NCBI GenBank assembly: GCA_031256125.1
Contig: JAIRRE010000035.1
Span: 1 to 10,899, forward strand
DNA length: 10,899 bases
Source: Burkholderiaceae bacterium
Lineage (GTDB): Bacteria > Pseudomonadota > Gammaproteobacteria > Burkholderiales > Burkholderiaceae_C
Direction: 5' to 3'
Shown: in pieces, positions 1,825 through 10,899 of the stretch
Layout: every line of letters begins with the position of its first letter
How positions within the stretch are numbered: the stretch's first letter is position 1
Made by a program: the position numbers and the translations under genes
The notes under the pieces: generated by a model
The model's input: only the letters and a program-made list of their open reading frames with translations
The model's database searches: none
Told to the model about the DNA's origin: nothing

Positions 1825-2661
1825 ATGACGATCATCTCGCACCGTAACCGTGTTTTGCGCTGGGCTGCCGTCGTCGCGGCAGCTTTGGCGTTGCACGTGG
1901 CGGCGCTGTGGGCTTTGCAAATGGGATTGATGCGGCGGGCGGCAGATATGGCGTCGGCGCCTGCGGTTTCGGTGATCCAGATGACGATGATTAGCCGGAC
2001 GGTTCCTGCGCCCGCGCTTGCCTTGACCCCGCCGCCAATGACGGCGCGGCCTGCTATACCGCGAGCGGTGCCGTCAGTGAAGGTAAGAGAGAAACCCAAA
2101 CCTGCGAGCAAGCCTGTGATGCTCACGGCTTTGCCGCGTTCTCCGGTTTTGCCGGTTCAACCATCCCGGCTGCCTGATCGACCCGTGCAGTCGGCCCAGC
2201 CAGTACTGCAATCGGTGGCTGACCCCGTGGCACAGACGGTTCATGAAGCTGTGTCGGCGGTTTCGGAGCCATCACCACCCATTGCTTCGGCCAGCGCTGC
2301 CCAGACAGATGGCGGGCTGGCGGCGACCGCATCAACCGCCGATGCGGCGGGGTTACCTGCGCAAGAGCAAGGGGATGCTGTGCTGCCTTCGGCGGACGCG
2401 GTTTGTTTCTACCGTCCGAAGCCGGACTATCCGCCGATGAGCCGTTTGCGGCACGAAACCGGCACGGTAAAAGTGGACGTGCTGATTGGCACAGATGGCC
2501 GCGTGCAGAAGACGCGGATCGAAAAAACCAGCGGTTACGTGCGGCTGGACGATGCGGCGCAGGCTACCGTGTACGACAGTTGGCGCTGCCGTCCCTATAC
2601 GCGCGACGGCGTACCTGTGGCAAAGTGGTACGGCGTACCGTTTGAGTTCAATTTGGAATAG
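1825..2661 (+). CDS. tonB: energy transducer TonB
   Basis: TonB couples the proton-motive force harvested by ExbB-ExbD to outer-membrane TonB-dependent receptors. The 278-residue product has a short basic N-terminus and one membrane helix at about residues 12-32. His24 in that helix matches the functionally important His of the TonB transmembrane segment. A long Pro/Ala/Lys-rich periplasm-spanning region follows (about 60-190), including KVREKPKPASKP. The TonB C-terminal fold is at about 195-278, with the typical PDYPPMSRLRHETGTVKV start and a DSWRCRPY motif near the end. The frame stays open upstream to an ATG at 1642, but that start would overlap the divergent kinase and adds 61 residues unlike TonB, so I prefer 1825. 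No exbB or exbD is adjacent, so it must use ExbBD encoded elsewhere. Cys194 and Cys255 in the C-terminal domain could form a disulfide. Confidence 0.88.
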   Translation: MTIISHRNRVLRWAAVVAAALALHVAALWALQMGLMRRAADMASAPAVSVIQMTMISRTVPAPALALTPPPMTARPAIPRAVPSVKVREKPKPASKPVMLTALPRSPVLPVQPSRLPDRPVQSAQPVLQSVADPVAQTVHEAVSAVSEPSPPIASASAAQTDGGLAATASTADAAGLPAQEQGDAVLPSADAVCFYRPKPDYPPMSRLRHETGTVKVDVLIGTDGRVQKTRIEKTSGYVRLDDAAQATVYDSWRCRPYTRDGVPVAKWYGVPFEFNLE

Positions 2662-3122: not shown

Positions 3123-3932
3123 TTACAACACCATATCCACGCTCAAGCCCGCCGTCTGGCTGAAGCCGCCATCGACGTAGGTGATTTCGGCGGTTACGCC
3201 CGCCGCCAGGTCGGACAGCAGAAATGCCGCCACATTACCCACGTCGTCGATGCTGACGTTGCGGCGCAGCGGCGCGGCTTGCGCTACGTAGCCCAACAGC
3301 TTGCCGAAGTCCTTGATGCCGCTGGCAGCCAGCGTTTTGATGGGGCCGGCGCTAATACCGTTAACGCGGATGCCGCGCGGCCCCAGCGCCTCGGCCAGGT
3401 AACGCACGCCCGCTTCCAGGCTGGCCTTGGCCAGCCCCATGGTGTTGTAGTTGGGGATGGCGCGCAGCGCGCCCAGATACGACAGGGTCAGCAACGCTGC
3501 CTTGTCGTTCAGGTACGGCAGGGCGGCCTTGGCCATGCCGGCGAAGCTGTAGGCGCTGATGTCGTGCGCGATGCGGAAGTTTTCGCGCGTCAGGCCGTCC
3601 AGGAAGTTGCCCGCGATGGCTTCGCGCGGCGCAAAGCCGATGGCGTGCACAAAGCCGTCAAACTTGGGCCAATGCGCAGACAGATCGGCGAACAGGCGCT
3701 CGATCTGCTCATCGCTGCCGGCATCGCAGTCGAACACCAGTTGTGAGCCAAACTCGGCGGCGAATTCGGTGATGCGCGCCTTGAAGCGTTCGCCGACGTA
3801 GCTGAAGGCCAGCTCCGCTCCCTGCGCGTGCGCCGCGCGGGCAATGCCGTAGGCGATGGAGCGGTTGGAGAGCACGCCGGTGATGAGCAATTTTTTGCCC
3901 GCCAGAAAGCCAGTGGGGTTGGGGAGGTTCAT
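3123..3932 (-). CDS. fabI: enoyl-[acyl-carrier-protein] reductase (NADH), FabI
   Basis: Catalyses the last, NADH-dependent step of each fatty-acid elongation cycle by reducing trans-2-enoyl-ACP in the cytosol. The 269-residue product is the usual FabI length. It shows the atypical-SDR cofactor segment [15 protein letters not shown] (about 17-31), then VHAIGFAP (95-102). The FabI catalytic pattern Tyr-x6-Tyr-x6-Lys is present as Tyr152, Tyr162 and Lys169 within [19 protein letters not shown], followed by [17 protein letters not shown]. Residues equivalent to E. coli Gly93, Met159 and Phe203, where triclosan-resistance changes arise, are the wild-type ones. The frame extends upstream to 4031, but the ATG at 3932 has a good AGGAGA Shine-Dalgarno 8 nt away and begins at the normal FabI N-terminus. 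It is first in a two-gene unit with the NIPSNAP gene and is divergent from the solute-binding protein gene. Confidence 0.97.
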
Positions 3933-3973
3933 ACGGACAATCTCCTGTGAAAAAAGACCGGCAGAATTGTCGC

Positions 3974-5818
3974 ATGTGGGTTTGCAAGGCCATTTTGAAT
4001 ATGCTGATCGCCGGGTGCGCCGCGCTGGCACCGTGCTGTGCGCTGGCTGCGCAGGGCTACGCGCTGTGGGACGATCTGAAGTATTCCGCCGGGTTCGACC
4101 ATTTCGCCTACGTCAACCCCGCCGCGCCCAAGGGCGGCGAGTTGCGGCTGGCGAGCAACCAGCGCGCGTCCACGTTCGACAAATACAACCCGTTCACGCT
4201 GCGCGGCAGCGCGCCGGCGTATCTGGAAGGGTTGCTGTTCGATACGCTGCTGACCAGTCCAATGGACGAAAGCGGCGCAGGCTACGGGCTGCTGGCCGAG
4301 GACGTGCAAGTCGCGCCCGACCGCTTGTCCGTCACTTTCCGGTTGCGACCCGATGCGCGTTTCCACAACGGCGATCCGGTGCTGGCCGAAGACGTACGCC
4401 ACAGTTACGAAACGCTAATCGGCCCCTACGCCTCGCCCGCTTACAAGACGCTGCTGATCGACGTGGCCGGCGTGAACGTGCTGGACGCGCGCACGGTGCG
4501 TTTTCGCTTCAAGGCGCCGCGCCGCGAGCTGCCTCTGGTCGTCGGCGGTCTGCCGGTGTTTAGCCGCAAGTGGGGCCAGGGCAAGCCGTTCGACAAGGTG
4601 GTGATGGATGTGCCCATCGGCTCCGGTCCTTACACCATTGGGCCGGTGCGTTTTGGCAAGGACATTACCTACGTGCGCGATCCACGCTATTGGGCGCGCG
4701 ATCTGCCGGTGCGGCGCGGCCAGTTCAACTTCGACCGCATCACGGTCAAGATTTACCAGGACAACACCGCACGGCTGGAAGCGCTCAAGGCCGGCGAATT
4801 CGACCTGATGACGTTTTATTCGGCGGGGGACTGGGTGCGGCGCGTCAATGGCAAGCGGTTTGCCAGCGGCGAACTGGTCAAGGCTCAATTCCGGCACCGG
4901 CTGCCCACGGGTTTTCAAAGCACCGTGCTTAACAGCCGCCGCCCGTTTTTGGCCGACGCGCGAGTGCGCCAGGCGCTGGGGCTGGCGATCGACTTCGAGT
5001 GGCTCAACCGCCAGTTGTTCTACGGCAGTTACCGGCGCGTGCGTGGACTGTTTGGCAATACCGATTGCGCCGCCACTGGCGAACCGGACGCGGCGCAACT
5101 GGCGCTGATGAACCCGTGGCGCAAGGACATCCCGCCTGCCGCGTTCGGCCCGGCTTATCAGCCGCCGCGCACCGACCGCCCCGCCGACCCCAGTGTCGGC
5201 GGTCTGCGCGAGAACCTGCGCCGCGCGCAGGCGCTGCTCAAGGACGCAGGCTGGCAGGTCAGGGATGGCGCGCTGCGCAACGCTGCCGGGCAGGCGATGG
5301 TGCTGGAATATCTCGACAGCAGCGAGGCCGGCGCGCGCGTGGTCGTGCCGTGGATGCGCAATCTGGAAAAACTCGGCATTCGCCTGGTCTTTCGCCCAGT
5401 CGATTTCGCGCTGTACCAGCAGCGCCTGCAAACCTTCGATTTCGATATCACCACCATCGCCTATCAGGGCAGCAGCAATCCGGGACAGGAATACGCTGAC
5501 CTGTTCGGCAGCCGCGCCGCCGATACGCCCGATTCGGGCAACCTGGCGGGCGTGAAAAACCCGGCAGTCGATGATCTCATTAGCCGCATGGTCGCCGCGC
5601 GCGCCAAGCCCGACTATTTGGCTGCCTGCCGCGCGCTGGAGAGGGTTATCACCCACGGCTACTGGCTGCTGCCGCAGTGGTATGCGCCCATTCACCGCGT
5701 CGCCTACAACGCCTGGCGGCTGGGCAAACCGGACATCACACCCGATTACTTTCAGCCCGAAGATTGGGCGATGCAGACGTGGTGGGCGGCGCGGGGTGAT
5801 TTCGCAGCGCAGCGATGA
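3974..5818 (+). CDS. extracellular solute-binding protein family 5, YejA-like
   Basis: Periplasmic binding protein of an oligopeptide-type ABC importer (SBP family 5). The YejA subgroup delivers peptides such as microcin C to YejBEF. Recognition rests on the mature N-terminus ([20 protein letters not shown], then APKGG), the [20 protein letters not shown] motif, the IGSGPYTI segment and the YejA-like tail [13 protein letters not shown]. The signal peptide is about 25 residues and ends near CCALAA. An LIAGC lipobox-like string occurs but lies too early to be convincing. The start is uncertain: GTG 3947 (623 aa), ATG 3974 (614 aa) or ATG 4001 (605 aa). None has a strong Shine-Dalgarno, and I chose the ATG that gives a normal n-region. 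No permease or ATPase gene follows. The last 51 codons plus stop are duplicated at 8792-8947, so the 3' end may be a graft made when the arsenic islet entered. Confidence 0.88.
5661..5818 (+). repeat. direct repeat copy A: 3' end of solute-binding protein gene
   Basis: These 158 bp form the functional 3' end of the solute-binding protein gene and align without gaps to 8790-8947 with 13 mismatches (about 92% identity, counted by eye). The longest identical run is 18 bp (5770-5787). Homology stops abruptly on the 5' side at about 5661 and fades within about 20 bp after the stop codon. The two copies are in the same orientation and flank the arsenic operon, with equivalent points 3,129 bp apart. 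Confidence 0.9.
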
Positions 5819-5865
5819 CCGGCGCGGGCAAGGCTAACCAACAATATCTCCGCTGGTCGGCATCA

Positions 5866-5899
5866 TGGCGTTACCACCGCCTTTTCAGCCATAACGCCA
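5866..5899 (-). other. stem-loop across the acr3 stop codon
   Basis: A perfect 8-bp inverted repeat (arms 5866-5873 and 5892-5899, 18-nt loop) spans the acr3 stop codon, which lies within one arm. It is the last structured element of the arsenic operon before the junction with the binding-protein gene. There is no U-run, so a classical intrinsic terminator is not supported. It could protect the mRNA 3' end, terminate weakly, or be chance. Confidence 0.3.
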
Positions 5900-6908
5900 C
5901 GTTGACCAGCGCAATAAGCACCGGCACTTCCACCAGCGGGCCGATGACAGCCACGAACGCTTCGCCGGAGTTCAGACCGAACACGGCAATCGCTACGGCA
6001 ATGGCAAGTTCAAAGTTGTTGGAGGCAGCGGTGAAGGACAGAGTTGCCGATTGTTCGTAGTTTGCGCCTGCCCGTTTGGACAGGTAGAACGACAGCAGAA
6101 ACATGACTAGGAAATACACCAGCAGGGGAATGGCGACCTTCACCACGTCAAAAGGAAGCTGCACGATGTATTCGCCCTTGAGGGAGAACATGACCAGAAT
6201 CGTGAACAGCAACGCCCGCAGCGTCCAGGGGCTTATGCGGGAAATAAAGACCTTCTCGTACCAGTCCAGTCCTTTGACCTTGAGGCCATAGAACCGCGAG
6301 GCCACACCCGCAATAAAGGGAATACCAAGGTAGATAAAGACGCTTTCGGCAATCTGTCCCATGCTCACATTTACCACGGCCCCGGACAGGCCAAGCCAGC
6401 CGGGCAGCACGGTAATGAACACATAGGCATAAACCGAAAAGAAAAGCACCTGAAACACCGCATTAAAGGCCACCAGCCCGGCGCAATATTCCCTGTCGCC
6501 ACCGGCAAGGTCGTTCCAGATAATGACCATAGCGATGCAGCGGGCCAGACCGATGAGGATAAGCCCTACCATGTAGCTGTTATTGCCGGAAAGAAAGGCA
6601 ATTGCCAGCAGAAACATGAGAACCGGACCGACAACCCAGTTCTGTACCAAAGAGAGCAAAAGTACTTTCCTGTTGCGAAACACCTGCCCAAGTTGTTCGT
6701 ATTTCACTTTTGCCAGAGGCGGATACATCATCAAGATAAGCCCGATGGCGATGGGAATATTGGTGGTGCCCGCCTGAAAAAAGTTGATGACATTCTTCAC
6801 GCCCGGTGCGGCCCAGCCAAGCCCCACGCCGACGAACATGGCGAGGAAAATCCACAAGGTCAGGTAGCGATCAAGGAAGGAAAGCCGCAGTCGAGTGGTT
6901 TGGCTCAT
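5871..6908 (-). CDS. acr3: arsenite efflux permease Acr3 (BASS superfamily)
   Basis: Exports arsenite from the cytoplasm across the inner membrane, driven by the proton-motive force. The 345-residue product is typical of bacterial Acr3, with about ten hydrophobic helices beginning at residues 15-33. The family hallmark [18 protein letters not shown] contains Cys124, the counterpart of the essential Cys129 of the Alkaliphilus enzyme. The [20 protein letters not shown] segment (291-310) and Glu327 in [10 protein letters not shown] are also conserved positions. It is the last gene of the ars operon, 14 nt after arsC, with a GGGA Shine-Dalgarno that overlaps the arsC stop codon. Lower GC than the surrounding chromosome suggests recent acquisition. 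Some databases call this family ArsB, but it is unrelated to the 12-helix ArsB pump. Confidence 0.96.
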
Positions 6909-6922
6909 GAACTTGCATTCCC

Positions 6923-7465
6923 TTACATTGCGGCAATGCCGTCAAGAACAGTCTGGAGTTCGGTTGCGCCCATATCCGGTTGCGCTTCAAGCTGTCGTGC
7001 CAAAGCGCGTATCCGTTGGCCAAGCACTGCCAAGGTATCGGCAAAGGCAGCGGCGATGGCTGCTTCATCCCCCTGTACCTTGGCCGGATCGGGCATTCCC
7101 CAGTGGCTGCGGATGACACTGCCGAAATACAGCGGGCAGGTTTCTCCCGCTGCATCGGAGCATAGGGTTATCACCGCATTCGGTTTTTCTGGCAGGTGGT
7201 CCCATGATTTACTGGATAAGCCTTCTGTGGCAATTCCAGCATCCTTGAGCGCGGCCAGGGCGCGGGGGTGCACAAACCCGGTGGGCTTGCTACCCGCGCT
7301 TTGCGCAGTCACATCAGTCGGGGCCATTGACCTGAGCAAGGCTTCCGCGATGATGGAACGGCAGGAATTGCCCGTGCATAAGAAAAGAATTTTCAGAGGC
7401 GTTACCCAATGGCAGCGCACCTTCGGAGCGCTAGGGTCGCTAGTACATACAAAACGAAGACTCAT
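6923..7465 (-). CDS. arsC: arsenate reductase ArsC, low-molecular-weight phosphatase type
   Basis: Reduces arsenate to arsenite, the form methylated by ArsM or exported by Acr3. The LMW protein tyrosine phosphatase fold is recognised by the P-loop CTGNSCRS (nucleophile Cys30, Arg36) and the aspartate loop HWGMPDPA (Asp126). The resolving cysteines Cys102 and Cys110 in [11 protein letters not shown] resemble those of thioredoxin-coupled enzymes. The protein is 180 residues and carries about 22 extra residues before the usual [12 protein letters not shown] start, including Cys7 and Cys18. The ATG at 7465 is chosen because a clean AGGAG lies 5 nt before it and it begins only 8 nt after the arsM stop, which implies translational coupling. 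A GTG at 7420 would shorten the protein by 15 residues but has no Shine-Dalgarno. The C-terminal extension after about residue 150 is helical and not diagnostic. Confidence 0.95.
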
Positions 7466-7473
7466 AAGCGCTC

Positions 7474-8355
7474 CTATTTCTTGGCTTCAATGGATAGGCT
7501 GACAACGTAATCCGCTATTTCCTCGCCTTTCGGCAGTGTCTCGGCGATTTGTCTATACAAGGGGTCGTTCCAGTCCTGCATGCTGCGCACGTAATCGGGC
7601 TTGGGCGTAAGGGCGATGGAGGTGAAGCCAGCCTTTTCCAGCATGATCTTGGTTTCGTCCACCAGCGCTGCGCCAGCGACGCAACCCACCAGCGCCGCAG
7701 CCATTTCCCGGATGTTGTCGGGAAGAGGTTTGAGCAATGCCAAATCGGAAACGGACACTTTGCCGCCTGGTTTGAGCACGCGGAAGATTTCACGCCAGAC
7801 TTGAAGCTTGTCCGGCGAAAGGTTGATGACGCAGTTGGAAAGCACCACGTCAACGCTGGCATCCGGCACGGGCAGGTGTTCAATCTCGCCAAGGCGAAAC
7901 TCCACGTTGTCCAGGCCGGTACGCTGCCGATACTGCGCGATGTTCTGACGGGCTTTGGCCAGCATTTCCGGGGTCATGTCCACGCCGATAGCCTGCCCGG
8001 AAGCCTGCACCTTCTGGCCCGCCTGAAACACGTCGAAGCCGCCGCCGCTGCCCAGGTCAAGCACGGTTTGGCCTTCCTGCAAAGCTGCGATGGCAACCGG
8101 ATTGCCGCAGGAAAGCCCCATATTCGCGCCGTCCGGCAAGTTTGCAAGAGCTTCTGCGTCGTAGCCGATGGCTTGTGCCAACCGGTCGGGATCAACCTGA
8201 TTGCTGCGCTGGCCGCCACAACATCCGCCCCCGCCGCCCCTGCTGGCCCCGCTGCCACAACAGGAGGACTGCTGTCCCGTGGCAATGGCCGCATATCCGG
8301 CACGCACGGTCTCTCTGACTTGTTCGCTCGATGCGCTTGGGTTAGGTGTACTCAT
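7474..8355 (-). CDS. arsM: arsenite methyltransferase ArsM
   Basis: S-adenosylmethionine-dependent enzyme that methylates As(III) to mono-, di- and trimethylated forms. The 293-residue Rossmann-fold protein has the SAM motif I VLDLGSGGGFDVF (98-110) and an acidic VDMTPEML strand end (125-132). The three cysteines of the arsenic site are conserved: Cys83 (LSCGNP), Cys175 (SNCVINLSPDK) and Cys225 (LVGCVAGA). A Gly/Ser-rich N-terminal segment carries two CC pairs (32-33 and 45-46), as is common in bacterial ArsM, and may pre-bind arsenic. It starts 20 nt after arsR with a GAGG Shine-Dalgarno. An out-of-frame ATG sits 5 nt before the chosen ATG. Its presence makes the operon both an efflux and a volatilisation/detoxification system. 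Confidence 0.96.
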   Translation of the reverse strand: MSTPNPSASSEQVRETVRAGYAAIATGQQSSCCGSGASRGGGGGCCGGQRSNQVDPDRLAQAIGYDAEALANLPDGANMGLSCGNPVAIAALQEGQTVLDLGSGGGFDVFQAGQKVQASGQAIGVDMTPEMLAKARQNIAQYRQRTGLDNVEFRLGEIEHLPVPDASVDVVLSNCVINLSPDKLQVWREIFRVLKPGGKVSVSDLALLKPLPDNIREMAAALVGCVAGAALVDETKIMLEKAGFTSIALTPKPDYVRSMQDWNDPLYRQIAETLPKGEEIADYVVSLSIEAKK

Positions 8356-8375
8356 TTCATTTCCTCTGGGTTAGG

Positions 8376-8744
8376 TTACGGTTTCCCGTCTTTGCAACAA
8401 GCCGGCAAAAATTCCGGCTCAACTCCGCTTGTCATCGGGAAGCTCTGGCACTGGTCAGGTTTCCCGGAACAGCATTCAGCCGTCAGGTAAGCGATGGTTT
8501 CCAGCATCAGGGGAATGTTGGCCCTGTAGCGCGTGTTGCGGCCTTCCCGTTCCATGCTGGCAAGCCCGCTGTGGACGATAGCTTTCAGGTGGAAGGAAAG
8601 ATTGGTCTTCGGGATGTCCAGCATCCGTGCGACTTCGCCAGCAACCAGGCCGTCTGGCGCGTATTTGACCAACAGACGGTAGATGGCAAGCCGTGCCTCG
8701 GAAGACAGGACTTCAAAGATGGCGGTGGCTGTTTTCGCTTCCAT
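8376..8744 (-). CDS. arsR: ArsR/SmtB-family arsenic-responsive repressor
   Basis: Dimeric winged-helix repressor that leaves its operator when As(III) binds cysteines. From ATG 8744 the product is 122 residues. The recognition helix region is VAGEVARMLDIPKTNLSFHLKAI (about 35-57), written here as two adjacent parts, VAGEVARML and DIPKTNLSFHLKAI. The wing follows at SMEREGRNTRYRA. It lacks the ELCVCD motif of the E. coli plasmid type. Instead it has Cys91, Cys92 and Cys99 after the last helix, as in the Acidithiobacillus ferrooxidans ArsR type, plus a further CysCys pair (116-117) near the C-terminus. ATGs at 8762 and 8765 are in frame but lie upstream of or within the predicted -10, so 8744 is preferred. 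It is the first gene of the operon and presumably represses it. Confidence 0.93.
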   Translation of the reverse strand: MEAKTATAIFEVLSSEARLAIYRLLVKYAPDGLVAGEVARMLDIPKTNLSFHLKAIVHSGLASMEREGRNTRYRANIPLMLETIAYLTAECCSGKPDQCQSFPMTSGVEPEFLPACCKDGKP

Positions 8745-8750
8745 TGGATG

Positions 8751-8779
8751 ATTATACAACATCAATTGAACAATTACAA
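8751..8779 (-). promoter_or_regulatory. sigma-70 promoter of the ars operon
   Basis: On the minus strand a TTGTAA -35 (8774-8779) and a perfect TATAAT -10 (8751-8756) are separated by exactly 17 bp. The -10 ends 6 nt before the arsR ATG, so transcription should start at or within a base or two of the start codon. This implies a leaderless arsR message, which agrees with the lack of a Shine-Dalgarno. The promoter abuts direct-repeat copy B, so the islet carries its own promoter right up to the junction. Confidence 0.7.
8762..8769. promoter_or_regulatory. candidate ArsR operator palindrome
   Basis: The perfect palindrome TCAATTGA sits in the spacer between the -35 and -10 of the ars promoter, where a bound repressor would exclude RNA polymerase. 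A related CAATT half-site follows at 8771-8775. The placement is what an ArsR operator needs, but the palindrome is short and AT-rich, so chance cannot be excluded. Confidence 0.35.
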
Positions 8780-8789
8780 ATCGACAGCC

Positions 8790-8947
8790 ACTGGTTGCTG
8801 CCGCAGTGGTATTCGCCTATTCACCGCGTCGCCTATAACGCCTGGCGGCTGCGCAAACCGGACATCACGCCCGATTACTTCCAGCCCGAAGATTGGGTGA
8901 TGCAGACGTGGTGGGCAGCGCGGGGTGATTCCGCAGAACAGCGATAA
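8790..8947 (+). repeat. direct repeat copy B: diverged 3' end of solute-binding protein gene
   Basis: Ungapped partner of 5661-5818 with 13 mismatches in 158 bp. The mismatches are six synonymous, six that change five amino acids, and one TGA-to-TAA stop change. It begins about 10 bp beyond the ars promoter -35 and ends at the stop codon. After the stop, about 15 of the next 19 or so aligned positions, including the stop itself, still agree before similarity is lost. Confidence 0.9.
8792..8947 (+). pseudogene. headless 3' remnant of a YejA-like solute-binding protein gene
   Basis: Fifty-one codons and a TAA stop keep the reading frame of the solute-binding protein C-terminus: [18 protein letters not shown], then [13 protein letters not shown] and [10 protein letters not shown]. 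Five of 51 residues differ from the intact copy. There is no plausible start: the frame runs upstream only into DNA antisense to arsR. It is therefore a non-functional fragment. It is either the original 3' end of the upstream gene, displaced when the islet entered, or the last piece of a tandem paralogue whose body was lost. The even split of silent and replacement changes fits relaxed selection on one copy but is too small a sample to prove it. Confidence 0.85.
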
Positions 8948-9008
8948 CGGCGGCGGTCACCCCTGGTAAAAGTAGGGATATTGTCGCGATAAGCGCCGCT
9001 GGCGTGCG

Positions 9009-9470
9009 ATGATTGGCGCAGGCGTGTACGGTATGCCCTACTTTCTTTCATCACGGCTGCGAAAAACTCTTGCCTGGCTGGCGCTGTGCGGCATGTGCTT
9101 TGGTGCGGTCGCGCCAGGGGTTTCCAAATGGCTGGCCGCGACGAGGCAAGCGGCGGATTGGGTTGCGGTTTGCGATGGGCATGGCATTGAACGGGTTCCC
9201 GCAACGCAATTACAGGCGCAAGCCGGGCAAGGCACGCAGCAGAATCACCACCACGGCAGCAGCCCCGGCGGTGGACAGTCTGACGACGATGGCGATTGCT
9301 GCCCGTATTGCACGCTGATTCACCATTCGCCTTGGGTGCCTGTGGTTGCCGCGGCTTTCGCGCCGCATGCGCTGCCGCTGGTCGCACACTATCCCGCTGC
9401 GGATGTGCCCACCCCTGCCTTGCGGGCCGGGCGCAGGCCGCAGATGCCGCAGGCTCCGCCCCTCGTTTGA
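9009..9470 (+). CDS. DUF2946 family protein, probable copper-linked envelope protein
   Basis: 153-residue protein with a basic N-terminus and a hydrophobic segment at about 20-37 (signal anchor or signal peptide). A Cys-containing segment follows (WVAVCDGHGIERV, Cys55), then a polar, His- and Asp-rich linker with three consecutive His (80-82). The DUF2946 hallmark CCPYC (97-101) comes next, followed by HH (105-106) and a second hydrophobic stretch (about 109-126). Members commonly sit beside TonB-dependent copper receptors (as I recall, small genes next to oprC in Pseudomonas), and here the copper receptor follows 147 bp downstream. A role in metal binding or copper handling in the periplasm is inferred. 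The function of the domain is not established. ATG 9033 is an alternative start that fits the usual short N-terminus and has an AGG about 10 nt upstream. Neither start has a strong ribosome site. Confidence 0.75.
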   Translation: MIGAGVYGMPYFLSSRLRKTLAWLALCGMCFGAVAPGVSKWLAATRQAADWVAVCDGHGIERVPATQLQAQAGQGTQQNHHHGSSPGGGQSDDDGDCCPYCTLIHHSPWVPVVAAAFAPHALPLVAHYPAADVPTPALRAGRRPQMPQAPPLV

Positions 9471-9551: not shown

Positions 9552-9595
9552 CCAGCCGCCGCGCTGTAGGCGTAGCTGCGGGCTGGTTTTGTTTT
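9552..9595 (+). terminator. intrinsic-terminator-like hairpin in the leader of the copper receptor gene
   Basis: GC-rich stem (9552-9562 with 9575-9586, one bulged G and one mismatch, 12-nt loop) followed directly by TTTTGTTTT (9587-9595), the layout of a Rho-independent terminator. It lies 22 bp before the receptor ATG, leaving no room for a normal promoter in between. It therefore either ends the DUF2946 transcript with the receptor read by readthrough, or lies inside the receptor 5' leader as an attenuator. Confidence 0.55.
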
Positions 9596-9617
9596 GACCG
9601 GATTTCCCCTGATTACC

Positions 9618-10899
9618 ATGAAAAAGCATTCTTCCCGCATTCCCTTGCCGCTGACTGGCTTGACCCTGGCGCTGCTGGCGGCGTTTCCGGCGGCGCAGGC
9701 CCAGTCACAAGCCCAGCCGCAGCCGCAAGCGCAAACCCAGCCGGAGGCGCAAACGAGCGTGCCGGTACTCAGTACCGTGACCGTCACGGCATCCGACCTG
9801 TCGCCACTGGCGACCGTAATGTCCGACCCCAAGGCGGCGGATACCGCGCAATTGACCAGCAGCGGCGCGGATTACCTGACCAGCATTCCCGGCTTTTCCG
9901 CCATCCGCAGCGGCGGCACCAACGGCGACCCGGTGCTGCGCGGCATGTTCGGCTCGCGCTTGAACATCCTGACCGACGGTACCAACATGATCGGCGCATG
10001 TCCCGGCCGCATGGACAACCCAAGCACCTACGTCGCGCCGGAGAATTTCGATGCGGTGACGGTTATCAAGGGGCCGGAAACCGTGATCTGGGGGCCGGGC
10101 GCGTCGGCGGGCACGATCAAGTTCGACCGCGACACGCCGCGCTTTACCGCGCCGGGCCTGCGCTTTGACGGCAACGTGGGCGGTGGTTCGTTTGGCCGCA
10201 ACGACGAAACGGTGGACCTGACGGCGGGCAACGACAAGTTCTACGCCCGGATCACCGCCAACCACACCCATTCGGGCGACTACAAGGACGGCAGCGGCCA
10301 CGCCATCGCATCAGGCTGGGACAAGCGCAATGCCGATGTGTCGCTGGGCTTTACGCCCGATGCCGACACGCTGTTCGAGGTCACGGCGGGCGGCGGCAAT
10401 GGCTATGCCAAGTACGCGGGCCGCGGCATGGATGCGACCAAACTGACGCACCAGAACCTGAGCGCGCGTTTCGTCAAAAGCCATCTGGGCGGCCCGCTGG
10501 ACAAGGTCGAGGCGCAGCTTTACTACAACAGCGCCGACATGGTGATGGACAACTTTACCTTCCGTCCACTCAGCAGCAGCAGTAGCGGCGGCATGGGTGG
10601 CATGGGCAGCGGTGGCATGGGCGGTATGGGCGGTATGGGCGGCATGGGCAGTATGGGCATGGCGATGGCCGCGGCGGACAACCGCACAACCACCGGTGGG
10701 CGGCTGGCGGCAACCTGGAAGCTGGGCCAGACGTTCGATCTGGTCACGGGCGTGGACGCACAGGCCAGCCGCCACCGCGACCGCAGCGGCTCGAACACCG
10801 ATTCCTACACCACTTACCCGTGGGTCGGGGATGCCACGTTGGGCAACACCGGCTTGTTTGCCGAAGGCACTTGGCACGCCACGCAGCGCGACCGCGTGG
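9618..10899 (+). CDS. TonB-dependent copper receptor, OprC/NosA type (3' end outside window)
   Basis: Outer-membrane receptor that takes up copper using TonB energy. My translation gives 427 residues up to the window edge. A signal peptide ends at about residue 28 (AAQA), followed by a Gln/Pro/Ala-rich linker (29-46). A TonB-box-like STVTVTA (52-58) precedes the plug domain (about 62-172), with VLRGMFGSRLNILTDG and PENFDAVTVIKGPETVIWGP. The barrel begins at about 180. The CxxxM copper motif of OprC is present as Cys128-x3-Met132 (ACPGRM). The second half of that site in OprC is His-x-Met, and here the matching place reads Met308-Val-Met310 (DMVMDNF). A Met-Gly repeat follows at 324-350. No Shine-Dalgarno is evident before ATG 9618. 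DUF2946 lies upstream. The remaining barrel strands are outside the window. Confidence 0.9.
   Translation, partial: MKKHSSRIPLPLTGLTLALLAAFPAAQAQSQAQPQPQAQTQPEAQTSVPVLSTVTVTASDLSPLATVMSDPKAADTAQLTSSGADYLTSIPGFSAIRSGGTNGDPVLRGMFGSRLNILTDGTNMIGACPGRMDNPSTYVAPENFDAVTVIKGPETVIWGPGASAGTIKFDRDTPRFTAPGLRFDGNVGGGSFGRNDETVDLTAGNDKFYARITANHTHSGDYKDGSGHAIASGWDKRNADVSLGFTPDADTLFEVTAGGGNGYAKYAGRGMDATKLTHQNLSARFVKSHLGGPLDKVEAQLYYNSADMVMDNFTFRPLSSSSSGGMGGMGSGGMGGMGGMGGMGSMGMAMAAADNRTTTGGRLAATWKLGQTFDLVTGVDAQASRHRDRSGSNTDSYTTYPWVGDATLGNTGLFAEGTWHATQRDRV
10587..10667 (+). repeat. Met-Gly coding tandem repeat in the copper receptor
   Basis: Imperfect repeats of a 9-bp unit (GGCATGGGC and variants) encode GGM-type units at residues 324-350, with nine Met in 25 residues, preceded by five Ser codons (10572-10586). 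The segment directly follows the Met308-x-Met310 site and the FRPL strand and probably forms an extracellular loop. Methionine thioethers are soft copper(I) ligands, so the loop could gather copper. Such repeats are prone to length change by slippage. Confidence 0.8.

Follow-up and report, generated by a model that had tools for sequence, protein, structure and literature searches.

An arsenic operon between two copies of the yejA 3′ end

The window analysed here is one whole 10,899-bp contig (GenBank JAIRRE010000035.1) of an Ottowia-like metagenome-assembled genome (MAG) of the Burkholderiaceae, a MAG that consists of 365 contigs and is 77.7% complete. Within it, a predicted arsenic (ars) operon of four genes lies between an intact gene for a YejA-like solute-binding protein and a headless second copy of the 3′ end of that gene (Table 1). 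The direct repeat reported in a first-pass annotation of this DNA, 158 bp long and about 92% identical, is confirmed: positions 5661-5818 and 8790-8947, offset by 3129 nt, agree at 145 of 158 sites. In a blastn comparison of the two window halves, the match extends over 5655-5830 and 8784-8959 with an E value of 3e-63, and a chance match is therefore excluded. Also confirmed is the arrangement that had been described, in which the first copy ends an intact gene, the second is headless with a stop of its own, and the ars genes fill the space between them. The repeat starts at about 5655/8784, upstream of which only 13 of 55 positions are identical (5600-5654). Past the stop codon, identity is 9/16 in the first 16 nt and 16/66 thereafter. 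Exact agreement between the copies extends over at most 18 consecutive nt, inside the repeat. Copy 2 is an open frame of 84 aa, counted from its GTG, and it breaks off about 54 codons before its stop. A search of the 77.7% complete MAG for further copies of the tail returned these two only.

All four ars genes have open frames on the minus strand; for arsR, 8744 is an alternative start. Acr3 and ArsM score above their NCBIfam cut-offs, and ArsR and ArsC below theirs; from these matches, the operon is predicted to act on arsenic. In its gene content, and in having a promoter-like site ahead of arsR, it resembles operons of the arsR-arsM-arsC-acr3 type, a familiar kind of arsenic operon; it differs from them by its placement between two yejA tails. 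Four promoter-like sites are found in the region, compared with a mean of 1.4 in shuffled sequence. In the best of these, the predicted −35 element starts 4 nt inside the right edge of the islet (8783/8784), which suggests that the operon brought along its full core promoter and hardly anything more. On the left, ars DNA starts 0-16 nt past the yejA stop. Most islet windows have a GC content of 52-60% (one has 63%), whereas the stretch that runs from fabI up to the repeat has 61-67% and the DNA past position 9000 has 64-66%. Because values of 57-64% also occur at the left of the contig (1251-3250), GC content alone proves little.

An assembly chimera of two metagenome strains could also create such a contig, and the fragmentation and incompleteness of the MAG are in keeping with one. 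However, the longest exact word that the two copies share is shorter than commonly used assembly k-mers, none of the ars frames is interrupted, and the promoter-like site is intact. In addition, copy 2 continues into a gene for a DUF2946 protein, a position supported by a related genome (G170, below). A chimera is considered unlikely.

Table 1 Features of the 10,899-bp window
Feature	Position	Strand	Remarks
Histidine kinase	left part of contig	−	first in gene order
TonB	1825-2661	+	after histidine kinase, before NIPSNAP
NIPSNAP	between TonB and fabI	−	
fabI, enoyl-ACP reductase	3123-3932	−	synteny anchor, divergent from yejA, as in relatives' loci; Pfam adh_short_C2
yejA-like gene, intact, family 5 solute-binding protein	3947-5818	+	SBP_bac_5, 221 bits; alternative start ATG at 3971
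Tail copy 1, 3′ end of intact yejA	5655-5818	+	
Left boundary zone after yejA stop	5819-5834		residual 9/16 identity with copy 2, none beyond
acr3, arsenite efflux	5871-6908	−	TIGR00832, 452 bits, above cut-off
arsC, low-molecular-weight-phosphatase type	6923-7465	−	Pfam LMWPc; TIGR02691 below cut-off
arsM, arsenite methyltransferase	7474-8355	−	NF008823, 312 bits (cut-off 263)
arsR, regulator	8376-8765	−	HTH_20 above cut-off, HTH_5 just below; NF033788 below cut-off
Predicted core promoter of ars operon	8751-8779	−	TTGTAA-17-TATAAT; scores 10/12, the best among 4 promoter-like sites
Tail copy 2, headless yejA 3′ end with TAA stop	8784-8947	+	read as displaced native tail
DUF2946 protein	9009-9470	+	PF11162; likely native downstream neighbour, adjoins fabI in G170 (L177)
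TonB-dependent receptor	9594-10899	+	PF07715 Plug, 54.8 bits; runs off contig

The second tail adjoins the likely native neighbour

The locus was compared across a genus sample of 29 genomes, the window's own (G000) included. yejA is present in 26 of these, as a single copy in 25 and with four matches in G151; neither yejA nor fabI was found in G164 and G169. fabI and yejA are divergent in the loci of all 25 relatives, and in the available stretches of these relatives, some of them short, neither ars genes nor a DUF2946 gene was found beside yejA. The yejB gene of G000 is on another contig (C239), away from yejA.

The relative G170, which has the closest FabI among those seen (93%), lacks both yejA and ars genes, and its fabI and DUF2946 genes are about 180 nt apart (L177). 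Its spacer matches the window up to approximately the yejA ATG, and the match resumes about 20 nt past the position of the second tail's stop. Since the fabI-yejA spacer is kept up to this ATG, yejA was most likely deleted in G170. The adjacency of fabI and DUF2946 in turn indicates that it is the second tail that adjoins the likely native neighbour, and not the first. The simplest reading of these sequences is an ancestral order of fabI-yejA-DUF2946, with yejA lost in G170 and the ars islet gained in the window. The first-pass annotation had predicted that relatives lacking the ars genes would carry one intact yejA directly before DUF2946. This order was not seen, as G170 is without yejA, and what G170 does provide is the expected link of DUF2946 to the fabI/yejA locus in the absence of ars.

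The same annotation had raised a rival origin, in which a tandem yejA paralogue stood here and the ars islet replaced its body. An amplification that includes fabI and yejA does exist in G151, where an array (L157 6574-16269) with an exact 2424-nt period over 7,272 nt contains four fabI genes together with yejA copies that lack the 3′ end. These extra copies are, however, missing the tail (they match to residue 532) rather than the head, and yejA is single in 25 of the 26 genus genomes that have it. No relative with two full copies was found, and a replaced paralogue is regarded as quite improbable. The G151 array itself may be a genuine amplification of fabI or may have arisen in assembly.

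The two tails resemble diverged alleles

Over 52 codons, the two tails differ with a dS of 0.24 and a dN of 0.051. Expressed as proportions from this 52-codon alignment (a version with up to four codons outside the homology was not used), the values are 0.21 silent and 0.049 non-silent. Genus alleles at silent proportions of 0.24-0.36 have non-silent proportions of 0 to 0.38 among the pairs listed. The non-silent value of the tails falls inside this range at a similar silent distance, which is more in keeping with two alleles diverging under constraint than with the in-place decay of a copy; a young duplication would also be compatible with these values. From position 5660 on, 14 sites differ, nine of which fall in a comparable block and can be polarised against 19 genomes (five distant ones were excluded). 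Copy 2 is derived at five sites, four of them silent, and copy 1 at four, one of them silent. Mostly silent changes in copy 2 argue against in-place decay, which predicts the reverse. The nearest tail from outside the sample, P0123, shares the residues H, S and R with copy 2 alone at three sites. On these small numbers, the tails probably diverged in different strains, with most of the divergence preceding their juxtaposition. The idea of a tail brought from a foreign strain, put forward in the first-pass annotation, is thus favoured by the pattern of silent changes at a few sites; the site-specific element to which that tail had been assigned fares worse, as described below.

A second headless tail and the interval behind yejA

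One further headless yejA tail is present in the genus. In G153, the order is intact yejA, a metallophosphatase gene, a short copy of the yejB start, a BrnT/CopG-like gene pair (below the Pfam cut-offs), the headless yejA tail, a NACHT-type open reading frame (ORF) and yejB. The tail is decayed and derives from a different allele (84% nucleotide identity to G161 and 82% to G173). It breaks off about 85 codons before the stop, as opposed to about 54 in the window, and no fixed entry point is therefore seen. The NACHT-type ORF (L152, 8843-12041) encodes 773 aa, with NCH1 above its cut-off at 106 bits and NACHT just below at 24 bits; its location near the BrnT/CopG-like pair, between yejA and yejB, makes defence cargo a possible interpretation. 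In G150 (L180), a homologue of the BrnT/CopG-like pair immediately follows a yejA in which a G run puts the last codons out of frame, possibly through a sequencing error.

G162, a relative of G153, has yejA, the metallophosphatase gene and yejB without the gene pair, the relic tail or the NACHT-type ORF. The two genomes have in common an identical tract of 1,597 nt that runs from mid-yejA into the metallophosphatase gene (L152 6768-8364 versus L148) and is flanked by diverged sequence, with 135 mismatched columns over about 1.5 kb on its left side and 65 over about 0.4 kb on its right. Such a tract is expected from a recent exchange by homologous recombination, with a co-assembly effect as a possible alternative. 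The relic tail lies outside it and hence belongs to an older event.

Second tails are otherwise rare. In 87 stretches downstream of yejA, of which some belong to one and the same genome, the second tail of the window was joined by a single clear case (G153) and by four weak matches elsewhere. Whole-genome searches of the 29 genus genomes gave credible second tails in G000 and G153 only; matches in G163 and G156 were rejected as chance-level (E values of 0.007 and 0.0085). Of 399 genomes sampled from the family, 214 contain a tail match, and two matches occur only in G000 and G308. The latter was rejected as a duplicated tail, its two matches residing in long frames about 2 Mb apart. For other cargoes between duplicated tails of this gene, which the first-pass annotation had proposed to look for, the one candidate is the G153 case, with its different break point.

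The interval between yejA and yejB was measured wherever yejB could be reached, which was the case for 15 of 22 loci of the genus and for 56 of 61 other loci, after removal of six that duplicated genus genomes. The median gap is 858 bp in the 15 genus loci, 12 of which have at least 500 bp, compared with 57 bp in the 56 other loci, five of which reach that length. Three genus genomes with short loci, in which yejB-like frames start 63, 61 and 5 nt after yejA (G158, G175 and G160, respectively), are outside this count; with them, the genus proportion is 12/18. These wide gaps suggest that genes often come and go behind yejA in the genus, and among the relatives a tail relic is found in G153 only. 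The cargo in the widened intervals is varied, and the yejB-yejE interval is widened too in several genomes.

These comparisons bear on the explanation preferred in the first-pass annotation, a site-specific element at the 3′ end of yejA that supplied a replacement tail. SCC elements at rlmH insert their cargo at the 3′ end of that gene and leave its reading frame intact. The anatomy of the window fits this description: the cargo lies at the 3′ end of yejA, the yejA frame is open, and the left edge falls within 16 nt of the stop. In contrast to SCC, no ccr or other recombinase was seen among the scanned window ORFs, as had already been remarked, and those of the islet are acr3, arsC, arsM and arsR. 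In place of a defined short att repeat, there is a 158-nt repeat that is 8% diverged and has no exact match beyond 18 nt. No tRNA or other Rfam feature was found in the window. The scarcity of second tails and the different break in G153, which indicates no fixed site, also count against such an element. Its integration is not supported, and a version in which the recombinase acted in trans or was later lost is highly doubtful.

Proposed import of the islet with a foreign yejA 3′ end

The reading we favour, tentatively and with nearly even expectations, is homologous recombination within yejA coupled to a non-homologous join, by which the ars operon would have been imported together with a foreign yejA 3′ end. 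Starting from the order fabI(−) yejA(+) DUF2946(+), a cell would have taken up a DNA segment in which the ars operon followed the 3′ end of a foreign yejA allele. On one side, ordinary homologous recombination with the resident yejA would have occurred; on the other, the DNA would have been joined without long homology just upstream of the ars promoter, about 54 codons before the resident yejA stop. The outcome would be an intact yejA with an imported 3′ end, followed by the ars operon and its promoter, with the former tail remaining as a headless relic. This reading is based on the adjacency without ars genes in G170, the single yejA in 25 of 26 genomes, the allele-like tails and the parallel in G153. 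From these we infer the direction of events, a donor, the one-sided homology and a route without a recombinase. The islet is probably an ordinary recombination scar of a known type, for which the genus offers one possible parallel.

Such one-sided events are described as homology-facilitated illegitimate recombination, with homology at one end and a non-homologous join at the other (PMC3240628). The same type of join is proposed for the window. The nearest published model found is the recombination-driven turnover of integrase-free hotspots (2017, PMC5635113). The window is similar to this model in that no mobile-element gene is seen and the cargo sits beside a gene kept in most relatives, and the identical tract of G153 and G162 is similar in that it extends from this gene into the following one. 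The window differs by its headless relic, which is not expected from a double crossover at both flanks. Regarding homology on one side, two diverged yejA tails are seen to adjoin the islet; regarding elevated recombination in the flanking core gene, one identical tract in one pair of genomes (G153/G162) is available.

A single-crossover, Campbell-type integration of a circle of about 3.1 kb that carried a yejA tail and the ars genes would require RecA alone and would be reversible. It would equally yield one intact gene, an insert and a headless tail, and the unit between the repeats is 3129 nt. On the other hand, none of the named ORFs in these 3.1 kb is a replication or recombination gene, and a crossover should be rare within about 160 nt that are 92% identical and contain no uninterrupted match longer than 18 nt. 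Integration of a circle is rated as unlikely.

Several observations weigh against import with a foreign tail. Close relatives in which an intact yejA adjoins DUF2946 were not found, and tail 1 is thus not demonstrably foreign. G170 is a MAG of 57% completeness, and some of the relatives' downstream stretches are short (385 bp in G174 and 902 bp in G161). The polarisation rests on few sites, two of the nine with split outgroups (11/19 and 12/19). Over 126 nt, counted for all 24 tails with the end motif (which the G150 tail lacks), copy 1 is closer to 15 of the tails and copy 2 to five, with four ties. P0123 shares two residues with copy 1 alone and matches copies 1 and 2 at 41 and 42 of 52 residues, respectively. 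The relic tail of G153 lies outside the identical tract, which is itself possibly a co-assembly effect. Finally, no donor that has yejA beside this ars operon was seen, and no near relative of the ars DNA emerged among the 399 family genomes or in the plasmid collection: eight of the 399 genomes, the window's own included, have matches, the other seven at 66-71%. Of 304 plasmid records that match the ars query, none reaches at least 80% coverage, and the best 30 of the 304 have 64-67.5% identity over one third of the query.

Thirteen of the plasmid records fall in the 80-90% band, and the three of these in a spread listing of 60 are pieces of 62-72 nt; megablast of the ars query against the plasmids gave no match. 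In the order, ArsR was found in 37 of 399 genomes, the window's own included, with a best other identity of 66% at the amino acid level. For ArsM, 8000 candidates were scored, and the closest of the best 120 listed has 85% identity; relatives among the matches listed have labels such as Betaproteobacteria and Azoarcus. Tails of yejA on plasmids, in 53 records and counted whether full-length or not, are all below 60% (best 20 of 53 listed). None of the viral contigs encodes a YejA or DUF2946 relative, and none of 15 DUF2946 matches is on a contig of the same length as that of P0123. No paper on arsenic resistance in Ottowia was found in the literature, and searches for duplicated target genes of islands returned nothing under most wordings.

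If the islet did enter by import with a foreign tail, the window presents a readable scar of a small resistance islet without a mobility gene entering the chromosome beside a widely kept gene that remained unbroken. The pattern of gene, cargo and headless tail of another allele is searchable, and could reveal the extent of integrase-free gene gain via ordinary recombination. A broader and rather doubtful proposal is that the yejA end serves as a recurrent recombination handle in the genus, with units of cargo and yejA tail moved by host recombination without a recombinase of their own. The cargo would be the arsenic genes in the window and the toxin-antitoxin-like and NACHT-type genes in G153. 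In that case, relic tails would mark successive swaps and could allow a unit to be re-excised as a circle.

Two minor observations concern the right part of the contig. In G169 (L161 4033-10517), DUF2946, receptor, TonB, DUF2946 and receptor genes are arranged in series, including at 4033-6162 what we take from its sequence to be a receptor gene. In the window, unlike in L161, NIPSNAP, fabI, yejA and the ars genes separate TonB from the DUF2946 and receptor genes. The TonB-dependent receptor of the window also contains a Met/Gly-rich repeat (GGMGGMG...) at 10579-10671.

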